From positions 1-33,566 of the forward strand of contig JADZCU010000070.1 in the NCBI GenBank assembly GCA_020851415.1: a DNA stretch of 33,566 nucleotides, read 5' to 3'. The number at the start of each line of letters is the position of its first letter. Position 1 is the first letter of the stretch. Below, piece after piece: positions 14,807-31,743 of the stretch. The notes under the pieces were generated by a model. It searched no databases. It saw nothing but the letters and a program-made list of their open reading frames with translations, and was not told the origin of the DNA. Source of the DNA: Candidatus Peregrinibacteria bacterium (GTDB taxonomy: Bacteria > Patescibacteriota > Gracilibacteria > UBA1369). A program made the position numbers and the translations under genes.

Positions 14807-14876
14807 AAACAAAAAAATCAAAGTTAGAATTGTATTATTACCATGCAGGTATGTGATTCGCAGTATAAAGGTTTTT

Positions 14877-14906: not shown

Positions 14907-15012
14907 CAAGGATGTTGTTGCCTGCATGGATCCTTGTGATTTTGAAGATGGGAAGAATGTGAAGCTTGCTGAATTTACTCTGGATGATTCGATGAGTCTA
15001 TCTATTTATTAA
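14907..15012 (+). pseudogene. Internally deleted remnant of a pseudopilin gene
   Basis: Directly after the duplicated promoter, 14907-14944 aligns without gaps to 19926-19963 (five mismatches in 38), and 14945-15000 continues as 20114-20169 of the intact pilin gene. Relative to the intact gene, 19647-19925 is missing, including the start codon and prepilin signal. A further 150 bp is missing between two GTGATTTTG copies (19955 and 20105), in frame. The remaining frame still reads DF-EDGKNVKLAEFTLDDSMS, but it lacks a start and a signal, so it is a decayed copy. It ends against the stop codon of the HAD gene. Confidence 0.82.
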
Positions 15013-15652
15013 TTAGATTCATGATCTCCTCTGAATTTATATCTCTCAAAGATGAGATAATTTTTTTAGCTTGGGGAAAATTATAATTACACCCCACGGT
15101 TTTATCCGGGCAGATAACACATATCGCACCGGAACTAACAGCTGCTTTATAGCCACCTACTGAATCTTCAATAATAACTGTTTCCGACGGAGATGCATTC
15201 ATTTTTTTCATGGTTATTAAAAAGATTTCAGGATGAGGTTTTCTTTTTCCCAATTCGGTATCGGATTGCAAAACATCAAAAGTCTGACCAAATAGAATAT
15301 CGACGATAAGCTTTATTGATTCTATTCTTGAAGATGACGCAACAGCCAATTTAAATCCATTTTTCCTTAGTTCTTTGACCAGAGAAATTGCACCGGGCTT
15401 TGCTTTTAAGTTATTTTTAATAAGTTTTTCATAAATTTCTTTTTTTCTGTTTCTTACATGCTCTACGTTGTAATGAAGTTTTTTCAGAGTAGCCCACTCA
15501 TATGCATCTATTGATGATTTTACCCAATATTCTTTCCATTCTTCCCAGCTTAATTTTAGCCCTATCTCGTTAAAAGCTTTTTTGTAAGCCAAAAACTGCA
15601 ATGGTTGTGAATCTACCAATGTACCATCCAAATCAAAAATAACGGACTTCAT
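15002..15652 (-). CDS. HAD-superfamily phosphatase, beta-phosphoglucomutase-like
   Basis: This is a haloacid dehalogenase-type phosphohydrolase or phosphomutase with all four motifs intact: DxDGT with nucleophile Asp7 and Asp9 (FDLDGTLVDS), the Ser of motif II (ASSSR, 105-109), the motif III Lys (GKRKPHPE, 135-142), and motif IV (IIEDSVGG, 160-167). The helical cap between motifs I and II (about 15-85) marks subfamily IA, as in beta-PGM and small-metabolite phosphatases. It is the last gene of the island's minus-strand operon, 12 nt after the SDR gene. It probably dephosphorylates a pathway intermediate or product; the exact substrate is unknown. Confidence 0.9.
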   Translation of the reverse strand: MKSVIFDLDGTLVDSQPLQFLAYKKAFNEIGLKLSWEEWKEYWVKSSIDAYEWATLKKLHYNVEHVRNRKKEIYEKLIKNNLKAKPGAISLVKELRKNGFKLAVASSSRIESIKLIVDILFGQTFDVLQSDTELGKRKPHPEIFLITMKKMNASPSETVIIEDSVGGYKAAVSSGAICVICPDKTVGCNYNFPQAKKIISSLRDINSEEIMNLINK

Positions 15653-15664
15653 AATAATTATTAT

Positions 15665-16369
15665 TTACCAGGTTCGCGACATGCTATCGATACGAATTTC
15701 CTGAAGTTCGATATTCTTATGTGCAGTGATTGCAAACATAACAACTTCTGCTACTTCTTCTGGCATTAATGCACCTATTCTCATGCCTGGTTTCTTATTA
15801 TTGAAATACGTATCAACTCTACCAGGAGATATACATGTAACTCTGACATTGTCTTTTCTAACTGCTAATCCGAAAGCTTTTGACATCATCAGAACTCCTC
15901 CTTTTGTTGCACAATAGGCTGTCGCGTCAGGGAAAGCGACATTATCGCAATCTGAACTAATATTGATTATATTAAGAAAATTTTTCCCATTTTTAATTTT
16001 TATAACTTCCCTACTTAAACTAAACATAGCCTTCACGTTAACATTAAACATTTCGTCTAACATTTCGTCAGATAAATTAGCAGGATCACCAAATCTCCCA
16101 ATGCCTGCCGAATTAACGAGTGCAAAAAGTTCTTTTTTATTCTTTACAGCATCTATAATTTTTTCCTGAATTGAACTGTCTGTGATATCACCGTACACAT
16201 TTATGACTTTAACCTTATGTTCTTTACAAATCTTGGTTGTAGCGTCTAAATTAGCGGAATTTCTTCCGGATAGAATTAAATTGAATCCGTTTTTAGCCGC
16301 TTGAATAGCAATGGCTTTACCAATGCCTGAAGATGCACCCGTGATAATAATGTACTTGTTATTCATCAT
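15665..16369 (-). CDS. Short-chain dehydrogenase/reductase (classical SDR)
   Basis: This is an NAD(P)-dependent oxidoreductase with an intact Rossmann fingerprint TGASSGIG (10-17) and VNSAGIG (85-91). The catalytic residues are complete: Ser138/139, Tyr152 and Lys156 in AYCATK. The NxxxG... SGRN segment after beta2 (34-37) resembles NADP-preferring SDRs, but cofactor choice is uncertain. Its ATG overlaps the stop of the upstream unknown gene in an ATGA arrangement, showing translational coupling. In the island context it would reduce or oxidise an intermediate carrying a carbonyl or hydroxyl group; in the coformycin-type pathways an SDR reduces the ring ketone. Confidence 0.93.
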   Translation of the reverse strand: MMNNKYIIITGASSGIGKAIAIQAAKNGFNLILSGRNSANLDATTKICKEHKVKVINVYGDITDSSIQEKIIDAVKNKKELFALVNSAGIGRFGDPANLSDEMLDEMFNVNVKAMFSLSREVIKIKNGKNFLNIINISSDCDNVAFPDATAYCATKGGVLMMSKAFGLAVRKDNVRVTCISPGRVDTYFNNKKPGMRIGALMPEEVAEVVMFAITAHKNIELQEIRIDSMSRTW

Positions 16370-16986
16370 GTGACTAATTTTAAGGGGACGATTTTATTAA
16401 TTTCATGAATTAATTTTATATTTAAAGGCCTTTTGGTACTATCGCACGATGTGACTAAATTATTATACTCACTTTTGTACTTAGAAATTATTTGTAACCA
16501 ATATTGGTATATATTTTCTTTCAACTGAAGATAATCATTAATATTTTCTGCATTAAGACAATAAGCTCTACCCCATCCATTCAATCTTAATTGCATTACA
16601 TTTGTATCACTATAACCAAATTTTTTTGCTACATTGAAACGGTATGCTAACCCTAGTGTACAAATTATTTCTAAATAGTAAGATTTATCAATATTGTTGA
16701 TATCTTGATATACAATATTTTGCACAAGAAAATTAAATATTGTTCCGTCTCCTAATACATAAATATGTCTTTTAAAACCGGTAATTTCTGTAAATAGTTC
16801 ATCAAAAATATTCATGGCAAACAATATCTTGCGAATTTTTGTGAGTATGAGTTTTTTTGATTCGCTATCGTCTATTTTTATATTAGATAAAGGACATAAG
16901 TCTTTTAGATTCATTTCATCTCCATTGTTTTGCAATAGATCTATTCTTAGCAGTGGACTAGTCTTTGATAATAGTTGAGTTTGCAT
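16366..16986 (-). CDS. Unknown protein of the biosynthetic island, 206 aa
   Basis: I do not recognise this family. It is soluble and appears mostly helical, with a central segment GDGTIFNFLVQNIVYQD (about 76-92) and a segment with Tyr/Trp/Arg/Cys residues (LRLNGWGRAYCLN, about 134-146) that looks like a functional core. There is no signal, membrane span, Walker motif or obvious metal site. It starts one base after the HisG-like stop codon and overlaps the SDR start by four bases, so it is produced with these enzymes and is very likely a pathway component or partner subunit. A HisZ-like regulatory role is conceivable, but I see no histidyl-tRNA synthetase motifs. Confidence 0.85.
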   Translation of the reverse strand: MQTQLLSKTSPLLRIDLLQNNGDEMNLKDLCPLSNIKIDDSESKKLILTKIRKILFAMNIFDELFTEITGFKRHIYVLGDGTIFNFLVQNIVYQDINNIDKSYYLEIICTLGLAYRFNVAKKFGYSDTNVMQLRLNGWGRAYCLNAENINDYLQLKENIYQYWLQIISKYKSEYNNLVTSCDSTKRPLNIKLIHEINKIVPLKLVT

Positions 16987-16987
16987 T

Positions 16988-17596
16988 TTACAGGTCTAGC
17001 TTATTCATTCGCTTCAGATTGAGATTTTTGTCATTTTTTTTAATTAATGACAAAGATAAATTGCAGTGGATAATATCTAGTTCTATCAGGTTGTTGCGAG
17101 CTATTGTTTCTCCAGACTCGACACAATCTATGCCAAATGGGAAAAAACTGGGGATGGTTGCTTCAATTGAACCACTAAGTTTGTAAATATTTCTATTGTT
17201 AGCTGAGCTTTTTTGTTCTAAATAGTTTTGTGTAATAAACGGATAGGATGAGACAATTGTATCATTTTCGCTAATATTCTTCACGGAATCGGTAATTAAA
17301 CTCATTCTTGTATTTATCCAGTTAAATTTTTTCAATTTATCAAAGCTAACTTTGTGTTGCAGTTCATGTTCTAATATCCATTCGTCTGGAACAATACCTA
17401 AATCAACTTTCTCATTGAGAATAAGTGAACAAATATCTGATGGCTTTAAAAGAAAGAAAATATAGTCTTCTGACTCAAAAAATAATTTTCTTTCTTGTTC
17501 AATGTTAAAGACATTATCTTTGACGTTGTTTTTAACAATTGACAGACTATTATTATGAAATCTTCCTTTTGGGAGAGCTATTTTAAGCTTAGACAT
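16988..17596 (-). CDS. HisG-like (ATP phosphoribosyltransferase family) enzyme
   Basis: This protein shows the short-form HisG fold signature: LPKGR near the N terminus, DLGIVPDEW (about 65-73), then GSIEA (142-146) and the PRPP-binding loop ESGETIARNN (160-169), corresponding to the E-T/S-G-x-T-L-x-x-N motif of HisG. The phosphoribosyl-binding loop is intact. It is divergent from true HisG, for example PSFFPFGID where housekeeping HisG has P-GLAD. I see no other his genes, so a pathway-specific phosphoribosyltransferase is more likely than histidine biosynthesis. The preferred ATG at 17596 overlaps the purM stop (ATGTCTAA); an upstream in-frame ATG lies at 17608. HisG homologues PenA/CofA begin coformycin-type nucleoside biosynthesis in actinomycetes. 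Confidence 0.85.
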   Translation of the reverse strand: MSKLKIALPKGRFHNNSLSIVKNNVKDNVFNIEQERKLFFESEDYIFFLLKPSDICSLILNEKVDLGIVPDEWILEHELQHKVSFDKLKKFNWINTRMSLITDSVKNISENDTIVSSYPFITQNYLEQKSSANNRNIYKLSGSIEATIPSFFPFGIDCVESGETIARNNLIELDIIHCNLSLSLIKKNDKNLNLKRMNKLDL

Positions 17597-18770
17597 GCTT
17601 TTTCTCATATTGGAGGATTTTTTTACTCATCGGATCTGTGATTTCAATTTCATTTGTATCTTCCCGCGAAGACCTCTCAACACGTCCTATTACTTTTGCC
17701 TCAATATCAAAACTCGCAGCTATTTTAAGAATATCTTCCACAGCCTCTTTAACACAAGATATTATCAATCTACACCCCATATTAAATGTTTTGTATAATT
17801 CATGAGGTTCAATATCTGAATTCTCGTAAACAAATCTAAAAAAGGCGCCAGGATCAATCATATCATCCATTATATATTTCACATCCTTTCCAAATCTTAT
17901 TGGTTTTGTTAATCCTCCTCCTGTGCAATTAAAAATCCCCTTTATTCCATTTTTATCATTTTCTAATAACTCTTTTATAAGAGGGAGATAAGAACGAGTT
18001 GGGGAGAGCATAGCCGCTCCCAGTGTCATGTCCGTACCGGGAATTTGGGTTTTTAAATTAAATTTGCCTGAATATGCACTGTCTGAAATATTTTTATCAT
18101 AAGTTTCAGGATATTTTTCTTTGTACGAGGAATCAAGCATTGCGTGGGCTAGCAGGGTAAATCCATTACTGCTTACCCCAGAGTTATATTCATTTTCATA
18201 TTTCGTTTTTCCATACGATGCAAATCCTACCAATATGTCTCCGTCCGCTGTTTGACTTGCATCTACTATATCCTCTATTTTCATTCTCGCAGAAGCATCA
18301 GAATTTACAACAATTGTACGAACATTGTTCCCTGTGTCAGCGGTTTCCCCGCCGCACATATCAATTTTCACATAACCAGCAAGTTTCTCTATAGCTTCTT
18401 TGTAACCATCGATAATTTTTGAAATTGCTTCGTCAGAAATAACCATTGGATTTCTATCAATGCTGTTTGTTAATTGAAATCTCTCTGTTGCACCTACGGC
18501 TGCCATATCATCGATATTCATAACAAGGCTATCATGAGCAATGCCTTTCCACACATCAGTGGGAAACCCTTCTTTTGTGGCCATGTATGCTATATTCGCC
18601 TTGCTTCCAGCTCCATCAGTATGTTTTAGATAACAATACTTATCATCATCAGCAATATCAGGAGATATGAAGCAGAAAGCTCCAGGGAAAATTCCTTTAT
18701 CTAATTTTTTAGTTGCTTCATGAACAGCGTCTTTGTCAGCATCGGATCCTAATTCTTTGTAGGTTAGCAT
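17589..18770 (-). CDS. purM: PurM: phosphoribosylformylglycinamidine cyclo-ligase (AIR synthetase), long type
   Basis: This is a PurM-superfamily ATP-dependent cyclase. The N terminus has KGIFPGAFCFISPD and the nucleotide-binding HTDGAGSK (50-57), followed by MNIDDMAAVGA (84-94), CGGETAD (139-145) and, in the C-terminal domain, NCTGGGLTKP. At 393 residues it matches the longer PurM type seen in Bacteroidetes rather than the roughly 345-residue common form. Canonically it closes the imidazole ring of AIR in purine synthesis. Here it is the promoter-proximal gene of a five-gene coupled operon without other pur genes. It may supply AIR or perform a related ring closure on a pathway-specific amide; which one is inference. 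Confidence 0.92.
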   Translation of the reverse strand: MLTYKELGSDADKDAVHEATKKLDKGIFPGAFCFISPDIADDDKYCYLKHTDGAGSKANIAYMATKEGFPTDVWKGIAHDSLVMNIDDMAAVGATERFQLTNSIDRNPMVISDEAISKIIDGYKEAIEKLAGYVKIDMCGGETADTGNNVRTIVVNSDASARMKIEDIVDASQTADGDILVGFASYGKTKYENEYNSGVSSNGFTLLAHAMLDSSYKEKYPETYDKNISDSAYSGKFNLKTQIPGTDMTLGAAMLSPTRSYLPLIKELLENDKNGIKGIFNCTGGGLTKPIRFGKDVKYIMDDMIDPGAFFRFVYENSDIEPHELYKTFNMGCRLIISCVKEAVEDILKIAASFDIEAKVIGRVERSSREDTNEIEITDPMSKKILQYEKKHV

Positions 18771-18817
18771 TTTAAAAATAATTTAAAGTTTATATGGGAA
18801 ATTTAACAATTATTTAC

Positions 18818-18862
18818 TTGAAGAGCCCGTCCAATCTAGGATAGATTAACGTATGTTGTCAA
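18818..18862. promoter_or_regulatory. Divergent overlapping promoters with a shared -10 dyad
   Basis: Toward the kinase gene: TTGAAG (18818-18823), 18 nt, TAGATT (18842-18847). Toward the purM operon on the minus strand: TTGACA (18862-18857), 18 nt, TAGATT (18838-18833). The two -10 boxes lie head to head and form a perfect dyad AATCTA-GGA-TAGATT (18833-18847). A protein bound there would control both transcripts at once. The calls rest on motif match and spacing only. Confidence 0.5.
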
Positions 18863-18884
18863 CGAAACTATGAAGTAATGCCCA

Positions 18885-19517
18885 ATGAGTTTTATTTCTG
18901 AATACTCTGCCTTTGAATGTATCAGTAAAATATGTCTAGATGAATCACCAGATTTACTACTAATAGGTGGGCCAACTGGCAGCGGCAAAAGCACTTTATC
19001 GCTTAGAATATCAAATGAATTGCAAATTTCACGATTATCCCTTGATAATTATTTTAAGGATGAGGGAGAAATGGAGATTGTTTTACCTCAACTTAATTTA
19101 AGACAATGGGATGCTCCGGATTGTTACCACTGGGATCTCCTGATAGAAAATCTGCAGGATATTTTTAGGAAAAAAATAGCAAAAATACCTGTTTTTTCAC
19201 ATGAAAACTCAAGGCAAAATGGCTGGGTTGATTTCACGATTCAAAAAACACCTTTGATTATTGAAGGACTTTACGCTTTGAGTCCAGAAATATTAGGAAT
19301 AGCTGAATCTATGAGGCTTAAAGTTCTTTCTGTTTTTTTAGATATTCCTGAGGAAGTAAGATGGCAGAGGAAATACAATAGGGATGTATTGGAAAGAAAT
19401 GAAAATCCGTCGACTTTGCGAATTTGGTTTGATCATATTATTAAACCTGCTGAAAAAAAGTGGATTAATCAGCAGTCGACAATGGCTGATTTAATAGTAA
19501 CTCATGATTTCAAGTGA
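18885..19517 (+). CDS. Uridine kinase-like P-loop kinase
   Basis: This protein belongs to the uridine kinase/phosphoribulokinase group, which phosphorylates nucleosides or related small molecules with ATP. The Walker A motif GGPTGSGKST (28-37) is intact. The substrate-proximal SLDNYFKDE (52-60) matches the family S-x-D-x-Y/F motif. WDAPDCYHWDLL, IIEGLYAL (125-132) and the Arg-rich lid RDVLERNENP (166-175) follow the Udk order. At 210 residues the size is typical. It is transcribed away from the purM-hisG-like operon and sits inside the same direct-repeat brackets, so it probably serves the same pathway (precursor salvage, product activation or self-protection). The exact substrate is unknown. 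Confidence 0.87.
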   Translation: MSFISEYSAFECISKICLDESPDLLLIGGPTGSGKSTLSLRISNELQISRLSLDNYFKDEGEMEIVLPQLNLRQWDAPDCYHWDLLIENLQDIFRKKIAKIPVFSHENSRQNGWVDFTIQKTPLIIEGLYALSPEILGIAESMRLKVLSVFLDIPEEVRWQRKYNRDVLERNENPSTLRIWFDHIIKPAEKKWINQQSTMADLIVTHDFK

Positions 19518-19671: not shown

Positions 19672-20376
19672 TTGAAACGAAAAACGCAAAATAAAATTCA
19701 GCCCGGCTTTTGTTTTTCACATTTTAGATCGGGTTTTACGCTTGCAGAGTTTATAGTGGTTATTGCCATTCTTTTGCTGCTTTTTACGCTTTCGATGCGT
19801 GGGCTGGTGAATTCGCAACGTAGTTTTTTGTTTAATAATACAGCTGAAAGAATTATTCAGATGGTTCGCGAATCCCGCAGTTTGGCTGTTACCGGGAAAG
19901 CTCAACCTGATTATACCGATGCGGACAAGGATGTTGTTGCCTCCACAGATCCGGGTGATTTTGTTACTCCGGCGCATTATGGCGTGCATTTTGATACCGC
20001 TTCAAGTCCGCAAAAACTGGTGATGTTTTTTGATGTGAATTTGGGCGAAAGCTCCGATCAAAATGAGGGTGTGTATGATCCGCCAAGCGCTATTGCCGGG
20101 ATTGGTGATTTTGAAGATGGCAAGGACGTGAAGCTGGCTGAATTTACCCTGGATGATTCGATGAGTTTTATTTTGGCTCCTGCCGGAACGAATACTGTTA
20201 TGTTTAGTCCGATTTTTGCAGATACAAGTTTTGATGCTCCCCTGGCCGGTACAAAAATTTTTATTTTTGGCGTTGAGGATACGGGTGGGACTATTGACCG
20301 CAAGCGTTGTTATAAAATCCACATAGTGGCAGGTGTACCAGAAGTGGCTGACAGTACAGATGATTCGTCATGTTAA
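19672..20376 (+). CDS. GspH/FimT-like type IV pseudopilin
   Basis: This is a minor pilin or pseudopilin of a type IV pilus-like machine. A 20-residue basic leader precedes the prepilin peptidase site SG|FTLAEF, with Glu at +5 and a hydrophobic helix IVVIAILLLLFTLSM, so it is a canonical class III signal. The 210-residue globular part is Asp/Gly-rich and probably beta. The start is a TTG at 19672, preceded by a TATAAT box at 19641-19646; no ATG gives a complete leader. It is the first gene of a four-gene pseudopilin run with 20-42 nt gaps. A truncated relic of the same gene lies at 14907-15012. Confidence 0.88.
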   Translation: MKRKTQNKIQPGFCFSHFRSGFTLAEFIVVIAILLLLFTLSMRGLVNSQRSFLFNNTAERIIQMVRESRSLAVTGKAQPDYTDADKDVVASTDPGDFVTPAHYGVHFDTASSPQKLVMFFDVNLGESSDQNEGVYDPPSAIAGIGDFEDGKDVKLAEFTLDDSMSFILAPAGTNTVMFSPIFADTSFDAPLAGTKIFIFGVEDTGGTIDRKRCYKIHIVAGVPEVADSTDDSSC

Positions 20377-20396: not shown

Positions 20397-21119
20397 ATGA
20401 AATTTTTTCTATCTACAATCAGACAAAAACTTCTGAAGGGGAAACGCCCCGGAGAAACATTGATTGAAGTTATTATGGCAATCTTTGTGGTTGCTGTTGG
20501 TTCTGCAGCGGCTACCTCTTTGATTGTTACGGCAATTCAGGCTAACAGTTTTAGTCGTGATAATTTGATTGCATTGAATCTGGCCGTTGAGGGTATTGAG
20601 GCGATGCGTAATGTTCGTGATTCAAACTGGTTACGTTTTGGCTTTGATAAGGAAAACTGCTGGAATTTGGATCCTGAACAGACGGCGTGTACTGCGCTCA
20701 CAATCACTACAAGCGCTATAGATGCCGGTGACTATACTGTGGATTTGAATCCGAATACTTTTCAGTGGACGCTGACGAAAATTACTACCGGTGCTTTGAA
20801 TTTGGCTGATGGAACCAGTGACGCGGATTATCAACTGAATTATGTGGATGCAACTGCTGCTGATAGTGATGGGAATGGTGTTCTGACCGATGATCCAGAT
20901 TTGTATGTTTCAAAAAATATTGTGGACGCTTTGACGCTTGTGAGTACCGGTGAAAGTAAATTTTATCGGTCGATTGTTGTTACGTATCCGGCTGTTTGTC
21001 CCAGCCTGAACAAATGTATGGACATTACCTCAACGGTTCAGTGGAAAGTTGGAAATCGCGTGGACAAGGTTCAACTTAAATCTTCTCTGACCAACTACGA
21101 TAAAGTGAAGAAATCTTAA
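20397..21119 (+). CDS. PilV/GspI-like prepilin
   Basis: A type IV prepilin with the cleavage motif RPG|ETLIEV (Glu at +5) after a short basic leader and the helix VIMAIFVVAVGSAAATSLIV. The residue after the cleavage site is Glu rather than the usual Phe/Met. The segment IALNLAVEGIEAMRNVRD is typical of GspI/PilV (LA-x-x-EG-x-E). The C-terminal domain carries Asp/Asn-rich loops and a few Cys residues. It lies 20 nt after the first pilin gene in the same operon and probably forms part of the pseudopilus tip complex. Confidence 0.88.
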   Translation: MKFFLSTIRQKLLKGKRPGETLIEVIMAIFVVAVGSAAATSLIVTAIQANSFSRDNLIALNLAVEGIEAMRNVRDSNWLRFGFDKENCWNLDPEQTACTALTITTSAIDAGDYTVDLNPNTFQWTLTKITTGALNLADGTSDADYQLNYVDATAADSDGNGVLTDDPDLYVSKNIVDALTLVSTGESKFYRSIVVTYPAVCPSLNKCMDITSTVQWKVGNRVDKVQLKSSLTNYDKVKKS

Positions 21120-21142: not shown

Positions 21143-22282
21143 ATGAAAACTCCAGCACACATTATTCGGAAAATTTTTGGATCGGGCAAAAATGCGCCTG
21201 GTTTTACGCTGGTGGAAATCATTATTGCATCGAGCATATTTACAATCGTGAGTTTGATTGGTGTGACGGTGTTTATTAACGTGACCCGCATTCAACGAAA
21301 AATTGCCCTTGAAAACGCGATTTATGAGGACGGACGTTTTATGATGGAACGCATTGCGCGTGAGATTCGCGCTAATACTGTGGATTATGAAGAGTACTAT
21401 AATAAACTGGTTGAGGGTGGAAAATTTGGCGAAATGTATACCTGTTACGCCTCCAGATTTTATAATCCGGGAACGGGTGGAACGGGGACTGGAAATCTTG
21501 GAGCTTATTGTTCGGATCCTGCTCTGGGTGATCCCGAGAGTAATCCGGGTTGTGTTATTGATAAAACAACTTTGGACGTGAATACAGGGAAAAACCCTTA
21601 TAGTGGAAATATTTTTGCGGCTGATAAAAATCCGGAGGATGCCAATGCGTTTTGTGACCAGCACTTTGGAGGCGCCACCGATTGTGGCGGTGACTTTGAT
21701 TTGCATAATCAGTCTCAACTGTATTTGATCAATTCGAAAGGTACGAAAAAAACTTTTATCACCCGTAAACGTGTGAACGACACACCGGTTGATGAGTACT
21801 CTTTAGCGATGCTGCAGATTGAGGGAATTGATACGAATACGGACTCCATAGTTGATCAGTGGACCGATTTGACTGTCTCTCCTAAAGAGTTTAACTGTGC
21901 GGCAAATTATGATTGTCCGGGCTCCACGCTTTCTGATCTTGAATCGACTTTGAACGGCATTACTTCAGCTACACGATACGTTGGTTTTGTTCCTATTTCT
22001 CCAATGAGAACCACTATTAAGGATTTGAGATTTTATGTTTCTCCTTTGGAAGACCCAAGAAAAGCTTTTGCGGAGACTTCTACCGCTGACGCTATTCAGC
22101 AGCAACCACATATTACGGTTGTTATGGTGTTGCAACCTGCGGCAAGCGAACTTGGAAACTTTGCCAGCGATCCGCCAACTATCACTTTGCAAAACACGAT
22201 TTCGAGTCGTGTTTATAATGAGGTGAAAAGTTATACCGGAGAAGGAACATGTGCTACGAACGGTTATACGCCGACACCTTAA
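21143..22282 (+). CDS. PilW/GspJ-like prepilin, 379 aa
   Basis: A class III signal with APG|FTLVEI (Glu at +5) and the helix IIIASSIFTIVSLIGVTVFI. The segment RFMMERIAREIRANTVDYEEYY after the helix is characteristic of PilW/GspJ proteins (M-x-R-I-x-R-x-I-R). The protein is large for the family, with an extended Asp/Gly/Cys-containing globular domain that may carry an adhesive or calcium-binding surface. It is co-transcribed with its neighbours (23-nt gap upstream, 42-nt gap downstream). Confidence 0.88.
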   Translation: MKTPAHIIRKIFGSGKNAPGFTLVEIIIASSIFTIVSLIGVTVFINVTRIQRKIALENAIYEDGRFMMERIAREIRANTVDYEEYYNKLVEGGKFGEMYTCYASRFYNPGTGGTGTGNLGAYCSDPALGDPESNPGCVIDKTTLDVNTGKNPYSGNIFAADKNPEDANAFCDQHFGGATDCGGDFDLHNQSQLYLINSKGTKKTFITRKRVNDTPVDEYSLAMLQIEGIDTNTDSIVDQWTDLTVSPKEFNCAANYDCPGSTLSDLESTLNGITSATRYVGFVPISPMRTTIKDLRFYVSPLEDPRKAFAETSTADAIQQQPHITVVMVLQPAASELGNFASDPPTITLQNTISSRVYNEVKSYTGEGTCATNGYTPTP

Positions 22283-22324: not shown

Positions 22325-23647
22325 ATGAAGTACACCAAAAAAAATACGGATCGAAGTTGTCGTTTGGCCAATGAGGGCGCGGTACGTTCGTCGAAATTGT
22401 ATGGAACGAAGCCAGGTGTTTCGCTTCTTATTTCGTTGATTCTTGTTTCGATTTTGGTGATTTTTGGTATTGGTGTCAGTAATTTGGTTATATCTTCTAT
22501 TCGTGAATCTGCAAATGTAAATCAGGCAAATCAGGCCTACTATGCTGCGGAGGGTGGCATGGAGGTGGGGTTACTGGAGAATAAGAATAAGGATGCGGGG
22601 TATGATGCCACGTTGGCTGATGTTTATTATAATGGATCGGGGAAACCGGGTGAGCCAGGTGTTCTTTTGAGTAAGGTAAAAATTCAGGGAACCGTGCCTG
22701 CCAGCTCTCAGATTGGCGGTGAATATGTGATGCCACGCCCGGGGACGGGAACTGCAGGGACGGGTTGTGATCCTTTGGATCCCCCGGTTGATGTTTCTGA
22801 TTCAACAAAAGGAATAGATCATGCCTGTAACTGGAACAAGATTAAGGTTGGAGAGACTGTGGGGATTCCGCTTTATACGACTATGGTAGATCCTGCTGAC
22901 ACCTCAAAAACGATCATTAAAAATCCTGAGGATTTAGATTTGCAAACTTTAAAAGTGAAGGTGAGGACGCCGTGTTTGGAGGGTGCTGCCGGCGGGCCAA
23001 ATAGTTGTACTTCCAGCGGAAGGTATCGGTTGGATGATTATAATGGTGTAGATACTGAGCTAAAATGTACTTCTTCTAAGCCAGATCTTTGTGGGGATAC
23101 GGTGGTTTCCTGGTCAATTGTGGGAAGTAATTTGACCGGGGATAAGGTGTATACTTTGGTGCCATATGATGTGTTTGACTCATCTCTTAAAAAAAGAATC
23201 AAATCTAACTCTGAAACGTACGAGTGGTTGATTAACTCGGTTAGATCTACAGGCAGTCCTTTTAGTGGTTTTTCTTGTGTACCTTATTGTGTCTTGTACG
23301 GGGGCAGATTTGGCGTTGATCCACTTGATGACGCAAACCCAGGTACTGTTCTTGATTTTCTTTTGAATGGGACTGTTGATCCGTGGTTTGTTCGATCTGG
23401 GATGGACAAGATTAATAAACCTGTACTAAAGTTGTCAGTTATTGGCAGTTTAAGTGAATTTTCCTCTGGTGACGCTGTCCCTTATCTTGAGTATCAGATT
23501 GTTTCCAATATTGGTGTTGGTGGTTCTGCTCCTCCTGATTTAGCTCAAACTATTACGGCTGAGGGCTTTTCAGGTCCTTTTAAGCAGGTACTTGAGGTAA
23601 AATTGCCGCAAGAAACCGGATTGCTGGAATATGTTATACAGCAATAA
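22325..23647 (+). CDS. PilX/GspK-like minor pilin, 440 aa
   Basis: A 32-residue leader precedes PG|VSLLIS and the helix LILVSILVIFGIGVSNLV. There is no Glu at +5, as is usual for GspK-type tip pseudopilins. The segment ANQAYYAAEGGMEVGLL matches the PilX/GspK signature (AYYAAEAG-x-E). The roughly 370-residue ectodomain contains several Cys pairs and Gly/Pro/Asp-rich loops. It is last in the four-gene set, so this cluster encodes a complete H/I/J/K-like minor tip complex without a major pilin or motor genes in the window. Confidence 0.87.
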   Translation: MKYTKKNTDRSCRLANEGAVRSSKLYGTKPGVSLLISLILVSILVIFGIGVSNLVISSIRESANVNQANQAYYAAEGGMEVGLLENKNKDAGYDATLADVYYNGSGKPGEPGVLLSKVKIQGTVPASSQIGGEYVMPRPGTGTAGTGCDPLDPPVDVSDSTKGIDHACNWNKIKVGETVGIPLYTTMVDPADTSKTIIKNPEDLDLQTLKVKVRTPCLEGAAGGPNSCTSSGRYRLDDYNGVDTELKCTSSKPDLCGDTVVSWSIVGSNLTGDKVYTLVPYDVFDSSLKKRIKSNSETYEWLINSVRSTGSPFSGFSCVPYCVLYGGRFGVDPLDDANPGTVLDFLLNGTVDPWFVRSGMDKINKPVLKLSVIGSLSEFSSGDAVPYLEYQIVSNIGVGGSAPPDLAQTITAEGFSGPFKQVLEVKLPQETGLLEYVIQQ

Positions 23648-23715: not shown

Positions 23716-25662
23716 ATGAAAAAACAACCTTCTCTTGAACGTGGGGTTTCACATTCAGAAACAAAAGCTGTTCGGCCTGCTCAACCTGTTTCTCCAGGTC
23801 TTTTTGATAAAGTTATCGGCAATCGGAGTGTTATTGCTGCAGCTGCTTTGAGTGGTGTTTTGGCGCAAGGTTGTTTAGAGGAAACACATGAAAGCAATGA
23901 AAAAGTTGGGAGTGTGCAACAGGCTCAATGGAAAGCTACTTCCTTCACTCCTTCTTGGGGACAGGCTCTTGGCAATAATGCTGTTCCAAAAGTTTACTGG
24001 AAGACTCCGACTGATGGGATTGCTGTCTTTGCTTCTGATAAAGGTGGTGGCCTTGATCTGTATATTTCTTCCACTTCTTCCGGACCTACCGGGCCCTGGT
24101 CTCCTGAATCTCTCGTTGATGATTCTGGCTCCGTTATGAAAGTGAATATGCTTGCTCCAACTGACAGTGAACGTGGTGCTGTTATTTGTGTTGGTGGGGC
24201 TTGCACCACTGGCAAACTTATCTTCTCTTCTGATCGTGATGGCTCTGATGATCTTTTCTGGGGTGATTTTGACACCACCACTCTTGCTGTTACTAATGTT
24301 TCAAAGCTTCCTGTTGGCTTAGCTAAAGTGAATAGCAATGCTACGAGTGAAATGTATCCAACCGTTGATTTTTCTGGTAACAAACTCTTTTTTAATCGTG
24401 ATTATAATCTTTATACCGCTGATATTGGAGTTTGGGATAAAACTGCTTTAACCGGCGCTGTTGGTACTCAAAATTTGGGTCCTTCGGTTTATGGTACTTA
24501 TTTAATATCGAGCAATAATTCTGGTTGTGCAAATGTCTCTTCATCTGTTGATGCCTGTCGTTACGATCTTTCAGGTACAACTTTGAGTGTTCCTACCAAT
24601 GCGAATAGTATTCCGGGCACTCTCGCTGCTCCGAATGATGCTCAGGAACAGTTCCATCCGTATGTTGATTCTCAAGGGTATCTTTGGGTCTCTACCGGTA
24701 CTGTTGGCAATCGTGTTATTAAAGCTTTTGAACCCGTTGCTGGAATGGGCGGAACGGGTGGCGCTGGTGGAAGTGGCGGAAGTCCAGATGCAGGAGCTGG
24801 TGGTTCTGAAACTGGTGGTACCGGAGGAACAGGTGGCGCTGGTGGCGCTGAAACTGGTGGTACCGGAGGAATGGGAGGTGCTGGTGGCGCTGAAACTGGT
24901 GGTACCGGAGGAATGGGAGGTGCTGGTGGTTCTGAAACCGGTGGTACGGGAGGCACTGGTGGTTCCGAAACCGGTGGTACCGGTGGCGCTGGTGGAGCTA
25001 TGCCAGTTGATTGCGCAATTAAAGTTGAATCCGGTCCGGGTGAAGTAACTTGTGATGCGAGCGGTTCTTTCATCACTATGAAAATTACCGCTGAAAATCA
25101 GGAGGTCAAATTTGTTGGTCCTAAAGATGGTTGTTACGTTATCGCCACTAAATTACCTTCCGCGGAAGGTGACTCTATCACTTACAACGGAGCGCTCAGC
25201 TTCCCTGCTGGTGTTGCTCATCATGTGAAAAATGTTAACCACTGCTACAGCAAGGGTACTATTGCCGGCCTTGATGCTTTTTATGAAGGTACTGAACCTG
25301 TTGCTTCTTATAAACCTGAATACAATAAGGACGGAAGACTTCATGTTGTGACTATCGCTCTCCCAGAAGGGCAGATTCGTTATGAACATAATGGAAAACC
25401 TATTCAGTCGATCGACTTTTCTGATAAAAAATGTTTAAATGAAAAACCTTGTGAACCCGGGCAACAGCCACAAAATTCAGAAGTTTCCCTCGACTTAGAT
25501 CTGTACGAATCGATTGACCCTGGTGAACTTCCGGTTGTCAAACCTGAAGATCCTAAAGGCTGCGGCTGTGACGTGCCTGGGACTCAAAGTGATACCCACT
25601 CTGGCGTTCTGGCCGTATTGGCCGCCGGTATTGCCTTCACTAGACGTAGAAGAAAAGAGTAA
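23716..25662 (+). CDS. Secreted surface protein A: propeller-like repeats, Gly-rich linker, MYXO-CTERM-like tail
   Basis: A basic N terminus of about 35 residues precedes a hydrophobic stretch ending SGVLAQGC (about 38-53), which may be a noncanonical lipoprotein signal. Residues 75-340 contain PD40/TolB-like beta-propeller motifs (IAVFASDKGGGLDLYIS, LIFSSDRDGSDDLFWGDF, KLFFNRDYNLYTADI). Then comes a Gly/Thr/Glu repeat linker (about 340-430) with 14-residue units, a Cys-containing domain shared with the next gene (about 431-600), and a C terminus KGCGCDVP, a short hydrophobic helix (627-640) and RRRRK. That last arrangement matches the MYXO-CTERM sorting-signal pattern of Cys motif, helix and Arg cluster. 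The protein is probably exported and surface-anchored; ligand unknown. Confidence 0.88.
   Translation: MKKQPSLERGVSHSETKAVRPAQPVSPGLFDKVIGNRSVIAAAALSGVLAQGCLEETHESNEKVGSVQQAQWKATSFTPSWGQALGNNAVPKVYWKTPTDGIAVFASDKGGGLDLYISSTSSGPTGPWSPESLVDDSGSVMKVNMLAPTDSERGAVICVGGACTTGKLIFSSDRDGSDDLFWGDFDTTTLAVTNVSKLPVGLAKVNSNATSEMYPTVDFSGNKLFFNRDYNLYTADIGVWDKTALTGAVGTQNLGPSVYGTYLISSNNSGCANVSSSVDACRYDLSGTTLSVPTNANSIPGTLAAPNDAQEQFHPYVDSQGYLWVSTGTVGNRVIKAFEPVAGMGGTGGAGGSGGSPDAGAGGSETGGTGGTGGAGGAETGGTGGMGGAGGAETGGTGGMGGAGGSETGGTGGTGGSETGGTGGAGGAMPVDCAIKVESGPGEVTCDASGSFITMKITAENQEVKFVGPKDGCYVIATKLPSAEGDSITYNGALSFPAGVAHHVKNVNHCYSKGTIAGLDAFYEGTEPVASYKPEYNKDGRLHVVTIALPEGQIRYEHNGKPIQSIDFSDKKCLNEKPCEPGQQPQNSEVSLDLDLYESIDPGELPVVKPEDPKGCGCDVPGTQSDTHSGVLAVLAAGIAFTRRRRKE
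24757..24995 (+). repeat. Gly-rich tandem repeat in surface protein A
   Basis: In-frame units encode ETGGTGG(M/T)GGAGG(A/S). The clearest nucleotide copies begin at 24847 and 24889 with a 42-bp period (14 codons). Similar Gly-rich linkers are common in secreted proteins of myxobacteria. Copy number may vary by slippage. Confidence 0.85.
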
Positions 25663-25748
25663 CATTTTGGTGAAAACAATGGACGAAAAGCTGGATTTCC
25701 TGCTATTTTTGCAGTATAAAGATTTTCTTTCATTAACTTCTTTATTTT

Positions 25749-27905
25749 ATGTCTGAAAGTGATCCACTATTACCGTTACCGGAAGTTTCATCCAGGGAAC
25801 CAAGTAATTTATCACGGAGAGCTTCCAGATCGTCCGATAGAAGTATTTTTGACGGCCTGCGTAAAAAACTTATGTTTGCTGCCGGGGTTGGCTTAACTAG
25901 CGGTGCTCTTGGTGGAGCTTTTGGAACTCAGGGGTGTCTGCCTGCTGAAAGTGAGACTGACTCACATGAAAGCAATGAAAAAGTTGGAAGTGTGCAACAA
26001 GCTCAATGGAAAGCTACTTCCTTCACCCCTTCCTGGGGACAATCTCTTAGCAATAATTTTGCTCCTAAAGTTTATTGGAAAACTCCTACCGACGGTATTG
26101 CTGTTTTTGAGTCTGATAAAGGTGGAGGATCTGATATTTACATATCTACCACTTCTTCTGGTCCCACTGGACCTTGGTCTCCGGAAACTCTTATTGATGA
26201 TTCTGGTTCTGTTGTGAAAGTAAACATACTTGCCTCAACTGAAAGTGAACGTGGTGCTGTTATTTGTGTTGGTGGGGCTTGCGCCACTGGTAAGCTTATC
26301 TTCTCTTCTGATCGTGATGGCTCTGATGATCTTTTCTGGGGTGATTTTGACACTACCACTCTTGCCGTTACTAATGTTTCTAAGCTTCCGGTTGGCGGAA
26401 CTAAAGTAAATGGAAATTTTACCGGCGAGATGTATCCAACTGTTGATTTTTCAGGGAATAAACTCTTCTTTAATAGGGATAGCATTATCTATTCAGCCGA
26501 TATTGGCGTTTGGGATAAAACTGCTTTGACTGGCGCTGTTGGCGCTCAAAATTATGGGCCTTCTGTCTATGGCACTTATCTTATTTCTTCTAATGATTCT
26601 GGTTGTGCAAATGTTTCTTCTTCTGTTGATGCTTGTCGTTATGATCTTTCCGGTACAACTTTGAGTGTTCCTACCAATGCGAATAGCATTCCGGGTACTC
26701 TCGCTACTCCGAATGATGCTCAAGAACAACATACCCCTTATGTTGATTCCAAAGGTTATCTTTGGGTCTCTTCCGGTACTGATGGTAACCGTACTATTAA
26801 GGCTTTTGAACCCGTTGCTGGCACTCCTGATGCTGGCGCTGATAGTGGCGAGGCAGGAGCAGGAGGAGCTGACTCTGGTACCGACGGTAGTGGTGGTGAA
26901 GGTGGAACGGGTGGAGCCGATGCTGGCACTCCTGATGTAGATGCCGGGATGGATGCAGCTCTAGACGCTGCGGATGATGTTATGGACTCCGGCACTGATG
27001 CTTCTTCTGATGCTGGTGAGGGCGGTACTGATGCCGGCTCAATGGATGCAGGCACTGATGCTTCTTCTGACGCGGGCGAAGTTGACGCTGGTATGGACGC
27101 CTCTACCGATGCGGGCGAGGGCGGTACTGATGCGGGCTCAACGGATGCAGGCACTGACGCTTCTTCTGACGCGGGCGAAGTTGACGCTGGTATGGACGCC
27201 TCTACCGATGCGGGCGAGGGCGGCACTGATGCTGGCAAACCTGCTGACTGCGCCATCAAGGTTGAGTCCGGTCCGGGTGAAGTGACTTGTGATTCGAGCG
27301 GATCTTTCATCACAATGAAAATTACCGCTGAAAATCAGGAGGTTAAGTTTGTCGGCCCTCAAGATGGTTGTTATGTTATTGCTACTAAATTACCTTCCGC
27401 GGAAGGTGACTCTATCACTTACAACGGAGCACTCAGCTTCCCTGCTGGTGTTGCTCATCATGTGAAAAATGTTAACCACTGTTACAGCAAAGGAACCATT
27501 GCTGGCCTTGATGCTTTTTATGAAGGTACTGAACCTGTTGCTTCTTATAAACCTGAATACAATAAGGATGGTGCTAAAGTTGTTACCATTAAACTTGCTG
27601 AAGGACAGATTCGTTATGAACATAAAGGAAAACCTATTCAATCCATTTCTTTCCCGGAGGAAAAATGTTTGGATGGCAAGCCTTGTGAGCCTGGCCAACA
27701 GCCACAAAACACCGAGGTTTCTGTGGATTTGAAACTTTATTCCAAAGCAAAACTGGATGATCTTCCGGTGGTAACGCCTGAGGCTCCGGCTGATGGTGGC
27801 TGTTCTGTAACCAGAACCCCAGAAGAAACAAGCAACGGCATTCTGGCAGCGTTTGCAGCCCTTGGAATTGCCGGACTGATTCGACGTCGCCAAAAGCAGG
27901 ACTAA
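25749..27905 (+). CDS. Secreted surface protein B: paralogue of A with Asp/Ala-rich linker
   Basis: The layout is the same as its neighbour. A hydrophilic basic N terminus (1-36) is followed by a hydrophobic stretch ending GTQGC (about 39-60). Propeller-like repeats (about 88-355) are nearly identical in many places to protein A. The linker (about 357-496) is rich in Asp, Ala, Gly and Ser with 33-residue repeats (DAGTDASSDAGEVDAGMDAS) instead of Gly/Thr units. The shared Cys-containing domain follows (497-670), then a tail DGGCSV, a hydrophobic helix (about 697-712) and RRRQK. The tail has one Cys where protein A has a CGC motif. The gene is a tandem duplicate with its own TATAAA box (25715-25720). 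Confidence 0.88.
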   Translation: MSESDPLLPLPEVSSREPSNLSRRASRSSDRSIFDGLRKKLMFAAGVGLTSGALGGAFGTQGCLPAESETDSHESNEKVGSVQQAQWKATSFTPSWGQSLSNNFAPKVYWKTPTDGIAVFESDKGGGSDIYISTTSSGPTGPWSPETLIDDSGSVVKVNILASTESERGAVICVGGACATGKLIFSSDRDGSDDLFWGDFDTTTLAVTNVSKLPVGGTKVNGNFTGEMYPTVDFSGNKLFFNRDSIIYSADIGVWDKTALTGAVGAQNYGPSVYGTYLISSNDSGCANVSSSVDACRYDLSGTTLSVPTNANSIPGTLATPNDAQEQHTPYVDSKGYLWVSSGTDGNRTIKAFEPVAGTPDAGADSGEAGAGGADSGTDGSGGEGGTGGADAGTPDVDAGMDAALDAADDVMDSGTDASSDAGEGGTDAGSMDAGTDASSDAGEVDAGMDASTDAGEGGTDAGSTDAGTDASSDAGEVDAGMDASTDAGEGGTDAGKPADCAIKVESGPGEVTCDSSGSFITMKITAENQEVKFVGPQDGCYVIATKLPSAEGDSITYNGALSFPAGVAHHVKNVNHCYSKGTIAGLDAFYEGTEPVASYKPEYNKDGAKVVTIKLAEGQIRYEHKGKPIQSISFPEEKCLDGKPCEPGQQPQNTEVSVDLKLYSKAKLDDLPVVTPEAPADGGCSVTRTPEETSNGILAAFAALGIAGLIRRRQKQD
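26940..27238 (+). repeat. 99-bp tandem repeat in surface protein B linker
   Basis: Units beginning at 27048 and 27147 repeat with a 99-bp period (33 codons) at near identity, with a partial, more diverged copy upstream. They encode an acidic Asp/Ala/Gly/Ser spacer. Confidence 0.85.
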
Positions 27906-27961: not shown

Positions 27962-30010
27962 ATGGATAGAAAAAAACAAAAAATTATTTTTGGAGGATTG
28001 ATCTCTCTGGGGGTCTGTTTGATTTTCGGGCTGCTGCTGTTTTTGAATGCTTTGAATGTCTGGCAAACAAACCTTTCTGATCACTTGTATTCCTTTAATA
28101 CCCATCCAGTTAACAGGAATATAGTCCTGGTAACTGTTGATGACTCTACTTTGGATCCGATAAATGGATTAGGAGATTATCGAGAATGGCAACGTGATGT
28201 TTATGCTCAAGTCCTCAACAACATGAATCAATATAAACCATCTGTAATTGGTCTTGATGTGCTTTTTCGATCACCAAAAGATCCTACCTCAGACCAAATG
28301 TTTATTGAGTCGCTGAGCAAAACCCAAAAACCGATTGTTACTTTCCAACAACAAATAAGAGATCCTAATGGTGATAGCATCACAGATGCAGTTTTTCCAT
28401 TTAATGAAATCCTCCAAATTCCTCAACTTGAATTAGGCTTTGGCGTCGCTACAGACAATAATGAAATTTTCAGAAATTACTCAGGTATTTCACATGACGC
28501 AAATCTCAATAAAGACTTTTTTAGTTTGGGTGTAAGTATTGCTTCCGCCTACACGAAACTCAATAATTTGCCGGTAAATTTACCAAAGAATAGCTTTAAG
28601 TTTCCTTATTTCTCAAACCCTGAGGATAACAGTGATTCCAATAAGTCTTACCCTTTTGTTTCTTTCCTGGAAGTTTACAACAACGATTATATTGCTTTTG
28701 ATCCACAATATTTTAAGGATAAAATCGTTTTAATTGGCGCTTATTCAAGGAGTTTCAAAGATTCTTTTTTCACCCCCCTTTCAAAAACTTACAAAATGTA
28801 CGGTGTGGAAATTCATGCCAATGCGATTCAGGCGATTTTGGAGAACAGGTTTTTACGAGAGATGAGTTTTGCGGAAAAGCTTTTGCTTATTGTGATTCTT
28901 GCGGTTCTTTCGACATTTCTTTTTCTTTATACAAAAGTGCGATGGTCGGTTCTCTACCTGGTTGTGGTACCGGTTGTTTATACTTTGTTGGCGCCCTGGG
29001 CTTTTAATAATTTGAATTTGATTTTTGATCTGGTGCATCCATATCTGGTGGTTATAGTGAGCTTTGCGGCTGTATATATTTATCGTTATGTTACTGAATT
29101 TAAAGAAAAACTGGCCTTGAAGGGTGCGTTTAGTAAGTATGTAAATCCTGAACTGGTGAAACAGATAACTGAGCATCCCGAAAATCTTCATCTTGGTGGA
29201 GAGAAGCGAGCGGTGACTGTTCTTTTTACTGATATTGCTCACTTTACGACTATTTCCGAAGGACTTACTCCTGAGAGTTTAGTCGCACTGCTGAACGAAT
29301 ATTTTGATGCAATGTCTGAGGTTATCATGGCGCAGGGTGGGACTTTGGATAAGTTTGAAGGAGATGCGATTATGGCTTTCTTTGGTGCACCGATTGCCTA
29401 TCCGGATCATGCGCTTCGTGCGGCAAATGCTGCTATTGGCATGCGTTTTAAATTGAATCAGCTTTTACAAAAATGGAAAAATGATCCACCACTGCCGGGA
29501 GGAGAAAAGAAACCTGCGATAGATTTCCGTTGCGGACTTTCTTCCGGTGACGTCATTGTGGGGAATGTCGGCTCTAAGGAACGTTTTGAATATACTGTCA
29601 TGGGAGACATTGTGAATTTAGGTTCTCGCCTTGAAGGTGCCAACAAAAAATACAGCACTAACATTATGGTTTCAGAGGCCACGTATGAACTTATCAAAAA
29701 TAGTTTTGAATGCAGGGAGCTGGATATTATTCGTGTGGTCGGGAAGACTAAACCTATCCGGGTTTACGAAGTTCTTTCCACCAAGGGTCAATTACCTGCA
29801 GAGGCGATGAGTTTACTGCAAAGTTATAATGAAGGAATGTCGCTGTATCATGCTCGAAAGTATGCGGAAGGATTAGAGAAATTCAAACAGCTTTTGCAAA
29901 AATTTCCTCAGGATGGTCCGAGCAAAATGTATTTGCAGCGCTGTGAAGTGTTGAGAGATTTTCCGAAACCCGCTGACTGGGACGAAGTGTTTGAGATGGG
30001 AAGTAAATAA
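27962..30010 (+). CDS. CHASE2-domain class III adenylate cyclase
   Basis: This enzyme makes cAMP from ATP at the membrane under control of an extracellular sensor. An N-terminal TM helix (about 9-30) leads to an extracellular CHASE2 domain (about 35-300) with VLVTVDDSTLDPI and SVIGLDVLFR. Two or three further TM helices (about 305-375) follow. The cyclase domain (about 415-590) has both metal-binding Asp residues (LFTDIAHFT near 421-429, and GDAIMAFFGAP near 467-477), the substrate-selecting Lys in DKFEG, and the transition-state Asn/Arg in GDIVNLGSRLEG. The Lys and Asp pattern favours adenylate over guanylate. The C-terminal roughly 65 residues look like a TPR-type helical pair. A partner CNB protein lies at 10596. 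Confidence 0.95.
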   Translation: MDRKKQKIIFGGLISLGVCLIFGLLLFLNALNVWQTNLSDHLYSFNTHPVNRNIVLVTVDDSTLDPINGLGDYREWQRDVYAQVLNNMNQYKPSVIGLDVLFRSPKDPTSDQMFIESLSKTQKPIVTFQQQIRDPNGDSITDAVFPFNEILQIPQLELGFGVATDNNEIFRNYSGISHDANLNKDFFSLGVSIASAYTKLNNLPVNLPKNSFKFPYFSNPEDNSDSNKSYPFVSFLEVYNNDYIAFDPQYFKDKIVLIGAYSRSFKDSFFTPLSKTYKMYGVEIHANAIQAILENRFLREMSFAEKLLLIVILAVLSTFLFLYTKVRWSVLYLVVVPVVYTLLAPWAFNNLNLIFDLVHPYLVVIVSFAAVYIYRYVTEFKEKLALKGAFSKYVNPELVKQITEHPENLHLGGEKRAVTVLFTDIAHFTTISEGLTPESLVALLNEYFDAMSEVIMAQGGTLDKFEGDAIMAFFGAPIAYPDHALRAANAAIGMRFKLNQLLQKWKNDPPLPGGEKKPAIDFRCGLSSGDVIVGNVGSKERFEYTVMGDIVNLGSRLEGANKKYSTNIMVSEATYELIKNSFECRELDIIRVVGKTKPIRVYEVLSTKGQLPAEAMSLLQSYNEGMSLYHARKYAEGLEKFKQLLQKFPQDGPSKMYLQRCEVLRDFPKPADWDEVFEMGSK

Positions 30011-30917: not shown

Positions 30918-31019
30918 ATGCCTCTGGCCACGCTGTGTGCCAGCCTGCAGGCAGAGGTAGCTCAGCTACCATTGATCCCCAACCACGGTAGAATGGAGGT
31001 AGAAACTCGGAAAAAGTAG
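30918..31019 (+). CDS. Possible small ORF in the leader of the GC-rich gene, 33 aa
   Basis: This short frame from ATG to TAG (MPLATLCASLQ..., ending RKK) lies inside the long leader and shares the raised GC content of the region. It overlaps a perfect 6-bp hairpin (GGTAGC-TCA-GCTACC, 30956-30970) and contains a GGAGGT at 30995-31000. It could be a leader peptide, the displaced N terminus of the next gene if a frameshift occurred, or chance. The frame is different from the gene at 31061. Confidence 0.25.
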   Translation: MPLATLCASLQAEVAQLPLIPNHGRMEVETRKK

Positions 31020-31060
31020 AAGTCCAGAATCGGGGAACGCCAGCCCGAATCCTCAGGACT

Positions 31061-31690
31061 GTGGTACCTGGCGTCGTGTTGCTCCTGTGCCCCCTGAAGG
31101 CAAATGCCGAAGAAGGGGGCGCGTCCGGCAGTGGTGCCGGGTGCGATGTTGTCCAGGACGGACCGACTCTGACCATCAAAGGGAGCTGCATCACTGCGGC
31201 ACCCTGGATGGAAGGAACCGAGCTTGATCTCGACGGGATCATTCGCGGTGAGCTTGGCTCGGAGACCCTCCATTTGGTCTCGGGCAAAGTGATGGCCCAC
31301 AACCTCGGCAACAAGAGGGCCCTGAAAATCGCGGTAGATGGCAGCGAATATTCGCTTCTGGTAGACCCGCAGGAAGTCGTTGAAGTCCAGATCAAGGACG
31401 TTGACCAAGTGGCCTGTTATTCCCATAGCGGGGAGACGGTCCTGAAGGTCAGCTATCTGACTGAACAGATTCGACTGAAGGCGGGACAGGGACGCACGGT
31501 AGTGCTGTCCCAACCGGAGGGCGAAGTTGCCTGCGGAATCGCCGCGCGGTGGTCGTATCCGCGTATGGAAGTCCCTCAAGAGGAGCTGGTAACCCCGGCT
31601 CAAAACTCGAGTGGATTCATCATCGCTATTCCGACCCTCGTGCTCTTGATGGCTCTGCGACGGCAAAGGAGGCCGATGCGGAGCGCCTGA
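31061..31690 (+). CDS. GC-rich secreted/anchored protein with C-terminal TM and Arg cluster, 209 aa
   Basis: From the GTG at 31061 the product has a hydrophobic signal-like start ending ANA|EE, a Gly/Ser stretch, a beta-rich middle with four Cys (near residues 27, 44, 125 and 159), and a C-terminal helix (about 185-198) followed by RRQRRP. A signal, Cys-containing beta domain and TM-Arg tail resemble the anchored layout of the two surface proteins, although a CxC motif is missing. Base composition is clearly more GC-rich than all neighbours, pointing to horizontal acquisition. The start is doubtful: the GTG has no positive n-region, and in-frame upstream codons (ARILRT) would supply one but offer no ATG. 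I do not recognise the family. Confidence 0.7.
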   Translation: MVPGVVLLLCPLKANAEEGGASGSGAGCDVVQDGPTLTIKGSCITAAPWMEGTELDLDGIIRGELGSETLHLVSGKVMAHNLGNKRALKIAVDGSEYSLLVDPQEVVEVQIKDVDQVACYSHSGETVLKVSYLTEQIRLKAGQGRTVVLSQPEGEVACGIAARWSYPRMEVPQEELVTPAQNSSGFIIAIPTLVLLMALRRQRRPMRSA

Positions 31691-31743
31691 GACCCCTCGC
31701 AATCGGGGAAGAGATTGCAACCCATAGCTTTGCTTTGGGCGAG

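Follow-up and report, generated by a model that had tools for sequence, protein, structure and literature searches.

The window analyzed here is the whole of a 33,566-nucleotide contig (G000:C70) from a Candidatus Peregrinibacteria genome (1.42 Mb, 95% complete, 81 contigs), and it carries two adjacent paralogous genes whose predicted products end in a Cys motif, a short hydrophobic helix, and a cluster of Arg residues. Tails of this type, MYXO-CTERM, have been described as a tag specific to myxobacteria (PMC11980579). Myxobacteria use them to position proteins at the cell surface. The locus raises the question of whether the two genes were acquired from such bacteria or whether this lineage has a similar anchoring system that depends on Cys, and of which enzyme would act on the tails. 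The host lies outside the Myxococcota, the phylum in which MYXO-CTERM is described, and we infer that its order is Peregrinibacteria/Peribacteria. The closest named relative of the cyclase encoded beside the two genes comes from Candidatus Peregrinibacteria Bin_256 (L088; 51%), and Candidatus Peribacteria ZH-bin-154 (L095) has the same tail as G090, a genome of the window's order, with identity over 50 displayed residues. Both observations bear out the claim, made in an earlier sequence-only reading of this DNA, that the genome is CPR-like. CPR bacteria are not known to have a normal outer membrane in their envelope.

The two genes encode putative tagged surface proteins A (23716 to 25662, + strand; 648 aa) and B, its tandem paralogue (25749 to 27905, + strand; 718 aa), which are 74% identical over the alignment and follow the same plan: a hydrophobic N-terminal segment, which ends in QGC, leads into the body, and a low-complexity linker separates this body from a second domain, to which the Cys-helix-Arg tail is joined. 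A has a long n-region, an export-type segment ending at Cys53, the body, the linker, a Cys-containing C-terminal domain, and the MYXO-CTERM tail. The hydrophobic export segments, which were judged by eye, precede Cys53 in A (23833 to 23874, + strand; ending in AQGC) and Cys63 in B (25869 to 25937, + strand; ending in TQGC). AQGC and TQGC are lipobox-like and non-canonical, and the G007 protein has LIGC at a comparable place. The GGTGG- and DAGTDAS-type spacers pointed out from the sequence alone are both present, as the Gly-rich linker of A (GGTGG type; 24745 to 25002, + strand; residues about 344 to 429) and the DAG-rich linker of B (DAGTDASSDAG type; 26817 to 27239, + strand; residues about 357 to 497). 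The DNA flanking the linkers is 85 to 86% identical between A and B, and the match ends at the linkers; these are wholly different in kind, as though a linker had been swapped between the paralogues. For the body, we obtained a weak match to the PD40 beta-propeller (A, 21.1 bits against a cut-off of 20.9; B, 20.0 bits), structure prediction for A from a two-sequence alignment failed (mean pLDDT of 29.2), and the similarity to the G007 body was marginal at best (25% over 230 residues, E 1.0).

In a genome-wide profile search with TIGR03901 (cut-off 20 bits), the tail of A (CGC, helix, and RRRR; 25558 to 25653, + strand; 29.3 bits, E 2.2e-6) and that of B (single Cys, helix, and RRR; 27795 to 27890, + strand; 23.7 bits, E 1.3e-4) were matched and nothing else in the genome was, while whole-protein hmmscan with the same model gave 23.4 bits for A and 17.4 bits, under the cut-off, for B. 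The tail of A reads ...DPKGCGCDVPGTQSDTHSGVLAVLAAGIAFTRRRRKE and that of B ...PADGGCSVTRTPEETSNGILAAFAALGIAGLIRRRQKQD; in both, a Cys is followed by a hydrophobic helix and an Arg-rich extreme C-terminus, confirming the tails proposed for the two paralogues. The LPXTG motif is absent from both tails, and TIGR03901 had zero matches in 14 control genomes. A custom model, A4, scored the tail of A at 50.8 bits, with the row of A itself forming part of the model. The sequence-only reading had looked to MYXO-CTERM and related models, and to further tailed proteins in the genome, for corroboration; MYXO-CTERM model TIGR03901 provided it for A and, in the genome-wide search only, for B, while JDVT-CTERM reached 12.7 bits for B, far under its cut-off of 27. 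Beyond A and B, neither TIGR03901 nor A4 detected a Cys tail in this genome; it is in the order that the tail recurs.

In a sample of the phylum, TIGR03901 matched 6 of 379 genomes, and all six were among the 17 that belong to the window's order. Within the order, 20 of 89 genomes matched, and 25 of the 27 translated matches that were read have a Cys shortly ahead of the helix. The G405 match, which is without Cys, was rejected as a tail; one match in G006 has a distant Cys, and this genome also has a separate, proper tail. A4 was built from 25 related tails picked for having the Cys, which aligned in 25 of 25. Of the 89 genomes of the order, this model called 37 with E ≤ 0.01, a number that falls to 31 with E ≤ 0.001. 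There is some circularity in this search, since most rows of the model derive from the genomes searched. It brought in 12 further tails, all with the Cys; the open frame in G420 is of 33 residues only. Thirty of the 31 genomes called at E ≤ 0.001 have Cys-bearing tails, the 31st (G363) having been left out of the reading. The tails occur in many families of the order and on otherwise dissimilar bodies, with the Cys at a fixed pre-helix position and with varied low-complexity linkers of the DTDSDAD, DAG, GG, or GN type ahead of them. This distribution supports the suggestion that the lineage has a comparable Cys-dependent anchoring system and, as judged from sequence, the tails belong to a lineage-wide system.

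The surroundings of the tagged genes are also conserved. In the window, A is preceded by genes for minor pilins, namely, a protein with a prepilin N-terminus (19672 to 20376, + strand; TIGR02532 20.0 bits, cut-off 16.3), a PilV/GspI-like protein (family c2, 8 genomes; 20397 to 21119, + strand; PilV 25.4 bits, under the cut-off of 52.2), a PilW/GspJ-like protein (family c5, 7 genomes; 21143 to 22282, + strand; TIGR02532 20.3 bits, over the cut-off), and, directly upstream of A, a PilX/GspK-like protein (family c1; 22325 to 23647, + strand; PilX_N 18.7 bits and GspK 16.9 bits, both under the cut-off). As minor pilins, these are weak model matches; of the last family, 2 of 9 members reach PilX_N at E ≤ 0.05. 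A gene for a CHASE2-adenylate/guanylate cyclase lies directly downstream of B (27962 to 30010, + strand; CHASE2 140.4 bits, Guanylate_cyc 88.5 bits). We compared the stretches around the TIGR03901 matches of the 20 genomes of the order. A CHASE2-cyclase gene is present in 14 of these stretches. The tagged gene immediately precedes it, in the same orientation, in 11 and lies within about 3.1 kb of it in the remaining three (G076, G189, and G448). The PilX/GspK-like gene adjoins the tagged gene in all nine genomes where it is present, and PilV- and PilW-like genes are usually near. The order of minor pilins, tagged protein with a variable body, and CHASE2-adenylate cyclase is kept in relatives, and the tagged bodies at this conserved place are mostly without a BLAST match to one another. 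Since it was the tail that guided the choice of stretches, the locus counts as a regularity independent of it. The constant position of the tagged gene, between the minor pilin genes and the cyclase gene, suggests that its product works with a type IV pilus/T2SS-like machine. In these comparisons, A3 was made without the cyclases of G408 (in two pieces) and G448, and the greedy ORF caller used for the neighborhoods miscalls some antisense ORFs (e.g., 30962 to 31720). Type IV pili and a T2SS have been reported in an analysis of Peribacteria genomes, together with Cys-rich exported proteins that weakly resemble Myxococcus repeats (PMC4736985).

Several other features of these contigs were observed. 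A gene for a cyclic-nucleotide-binding protein (10596 to 11051) and the CHASE2-cyclase gene share the contig with the pilin genes, which suggests cyclic-nucleotide signaling. The stretch from 15002 to 19517 is low in G+C, with one gene at 0.27, and a 126-aa ORF at 14441 to 14821 gives a partial match of 32.8 bits (cut-off 250) to HalA, the Hailong anti-phage effector. In G006 (contig C14), the tagged gene at L256:9066-10997 adjoins a trpS-looking gene, a few genes from a divergent Lgt gene.

A third ORF of the window (31061 to 31690, + strand), located between the cyclase gene and an rsmI-type 16S rRNA methyltransferase gene, has a signal-like start and is of the export type, and its product has a helix-Arg tail that lacks a Cys shortly ahead of the helix. 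In G006, the corresponding position holds a comparable helix-Arg gene, likewise lacking a near Cys, with distant similarity to the Cys-tailed protein of G305 (E 1e-5). These Cys-less tails argue against strict Cys dependence in the window's family. With a GC of 0.595 and a GC3 of 0.68, the ORF at 31061 to 31690 ranks highest among the 21 window genes measured.

In M. xanthus, MYXO-CTERM is cleaved by MrtX, a CPBP glutamic intramembrane protease, and the Cys is required (PMC11980579). With the CPBP model PF02517 (E ≤ 0.1), we obtained no match in the window's genome, against 12 of the 14 control genomes. An order-wide search matched 59 of 89 genomes and was again negative for the window's genome. 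With tails called at E ≤ 0.001 and the window's family set aside, 21 of 24 tail-bearing genomes have CPBP, as do 35 of the other 52 (Fisher p 0.09); that CPBP tracks tails across the order is therefore statistically unconfirmed. Within the window's family, CPBP is present in one of seven tail-bearing genomes (p 0.0007 versus the 21 of 24 outside); PF02517 was undetected in the other six, including G008 (98% complete, 6 contigs), and three members of the family do match it. The main CPBP family of the order (27 sequences; A2, made without L059 and the partial L069 and L079) retains the EE...R and H..NN residues, and 24 of its 27 members match the NCBIfam model Mrt_core at E ≤ 0.001 (best E 1.5e-9). 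The member whose scores were tabulated reaches 37.9 bits with Mrt_core against a cut-off of 100 and is under every myxosortase cut-off; ABC_perm_CPBP, which matched all 27 members, gave this member its best score. Hence, "myxosortase" is a proposal even elsewhere in the order.

Other known types of processing enzyme gave a similar picture in the window's genome. Rhomboid searches gave one weak match among the 89 genomes of the order and none over the cut-off, and exosortase had no match in the window's genome and was present in 12 of 89 genomes; these 12 are scattered over several families. The candidate processing enzyme anticipated for this genome was thus not found with CPBP, rhomboid, or exosortase models. 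With no match here to the enzyme known to cut the tag, a different one may act on the tails. PrsW, a distant relative of the CPBP proteases (PMC6588880, PMC3482391), has matches nearly throughout the order (88 of 89 genomes), versus 4 of 14 control genomes. The window's genome has PrsW-type protease genes at G000:C53:9541-10173 and G000:C44:13913-14560 (NCBIfam PrsW 43.2 and 43.4 bits, cut-off 225). PrsW is near-universal, so that its occurrence cannot link it to the tails, and the two genes lie in surroundings that by eye are housekeeping, which makes them candidates by superfamily only and not by place. Two polytopic proteins encoded in the window were considered as the enzyme and rejected, i.e., a 309-aa protein (family c8; 8479 to 9408) and a DUF3307 protein (family c12; 11069 to 11665); their families are present in few of the neighborhoods compared (four and three genomes, respectively), and no CPBP-type motif was seen in either alignment. 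Sortase A has been reported in Peribacteria (PMC4736985).

For the lipid that MYXO-CTERM proteins would receive on the Cys, Lgt has been proposed as the leading candidate acyltransferase (PMC11980579), and at least four Lgt copies have been reported in Peribacteria (PMC4736985). Within the order, Lgt matched 87 of the 89 genomes, mostly as two kinds scoring about 200 bits and about 115 to 140 bits; being near-universal in the order, it is not tied to the tails. The window's genome has three Lgt matches: the weaker kind is whole (on C45), and the stronger kind is split into a piece at an end of C41 and another at an end of C50, which share a sequence stretch. In an alignment from which three canonical Lgt sequences were left out, the canonical HGG and GNF were replaced in five of five weaker copies. 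Some of the HGG and GNF residues of Lgt are catalytic. This divergent Lgt-like kind is widespread in the order (L255:5220-6011, with relatives in L256, L257, L261, and L262). A gene beside the divergent Lgt gene looked by eye like PilC/GspF, an assignment that we rejected since there was no such Pfam match.

We favor, with a probability of roughly 0.68, the reading that the last ~35 residues of A and B are a Cys-dependent C-terminal sorting or anchoring signal of the MYXO-CTERM type that is native to the order and is carried by pilus-linked, exported surface proteins. On this reading, A and B would be exported via Sec until the C-terminal helix arrests export, leaving the Arg cluster in the cytoplasm. 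A lipid would then be joined to the invariant Cys, with an Lgt-type enzyme as a candidate, and an intramembrane protease would take off the helix, so that the protein would be held outside by its lipid. In most of the order, the cutter could be a CPBP protease; in the window's family, the helix would either remain uncut or be acted on by a different enzyme, for which the PrsW-type glutamic proteases are candidates through their superfamily alone. As cargo or as a surface adhesin, the tagged protein may work with the type IV pilus/T2SS-like machine, its body having probably been replaced or having diverged between genomes. More tentatively, and as an extension that we hold to be possible yet doubtful, the tags in the window's family are matured by a previously undescribed non-CPBP enzyme, e.g., of the PrsW type after Lgt-type lipidation, and serve a pilus-made surface protein; this would be a separate CPR sortase system in which the myxosortase has been replaced.

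The sequence-only reading had also considered that the genes came from myxobacteria. In its strongest form, both genes, tail and linkers included, would be a recent horizontal acquisition that is idle or non-functional in the host, and in its favor the tail model that matches is the myxobacterial one and the linkers have been read as myxobacteria-like. Myxobacterial DNA is GC-rich, and the GC3 of the two tagged genes (0.287 and 0.314) is below that of most neighbors, the opposite of what such a donor would leave. Moreover, no relatives of the A and B bodies were found in the collections viral_contigs and genome_contigs, which were scanned with two to six short patterns, or in 12 other genomes of the family. 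The low GC3 and the lack of body relatives in these searches make a recent transfer unlikely, and with the tails spread over 20 of 89 genomes of the order by TIGR03901 and the locus conserved, we regard this explanation as very improbable and the claim of acquisition as unsupported. An ancient transfer of the tag may have occurred.

The other alternatives concern the enzyme. That the window's family does have a CPBP-type myxosortase, missed through assembly gaps or divergence beyond PF02517, would fit a genome that is 95% complete in 81 contigs, and the A2 profile search is uninformative within the family, where it missed even the three PF02517-positive genomes. PF02517, however, does match those three genomes and went undetected in six of seven tail-bearing genomes, among them the near-complete G008; we consider an overlooked myxosortase unlikely. 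A comparably low likelihood applies to a plain, uncut membrane anchor. Helix and Arg residues would then fix the protein in the cytoplasmic membrane, the Cys would be neutral or at most carry a palmitoyl group or a disulfide bond, and the family would have no sorting enzyme. Such an anchor would be consistent with the negative CPBP, rhomboid, and exosortase searches in the window's genome and with the helix-Arg tails that are kept without a near Cys at 31061 to 31690 and in its G006 counterpart. However, a plain anchor needs no Cys, whereas the tails have one fixed before the helix on dissimilar bodies across many families, and they are recognized by TIGR03901, a curated sorting-signal model.

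A sorting signal of the MYXO-CTERM type is best compared with TraA and MrtX of Myxococcus xanthus, with which A and B share a GCGC-type Cys motif, a short helix, an extreme C-terminal Arg cluster, an invariant Cys, and the position of the tail after a low-complexity linker in a large, putatively exported protein. They differ in the phylum, in the number of Cys tails (two versus dozens), in that no CPBP protease was detected in the genome, and in the pilus-linked locus. JDVT-CTERM proteins likewise have a Cys-helix-Arg tail, and in these systems one target is paired with an adjacent MrtJ protease (PMC11980579), an arrangement not seen at this locus. GlyGly-CTERM/rhombosortase and PEP-CTERM/exosortase systems are similar in their tripartite C-terminal tails but differ in signature motif and in enzyme, no rhomboid having scored over the cut-off in the 89 genomes and no exosortase having matched in the window's genome. 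PilY1-type surface proteins are large exported proteins encoded after the minor pilins in an operon. A and B resemble them in gene position, in size and putative export, and in the weak PD40 beta-propeller match in the body; here, however, the propeller match is weak and on the N-terminal side, and neither A nor B matched PilY1 in Pfam or NCBIfam.

Our literature search found no paper that joins MYXO-CTERM with Patescibacteria or Peregrinibacteria. A MYXO-CTERM-type tag spread across one CPR order, linked to pili and present in a family in which the known enzyme was not detected, would broaden the scope of C-terminal sorting, and the window's family would be a natural case in which to find the enzyme that acylates the Cys or removes the helix. 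The tagged proteins are candidates for the surface proteins by which these uncultured, ultra-small Peregrinibacteria-type bacteria may touch their hosts.
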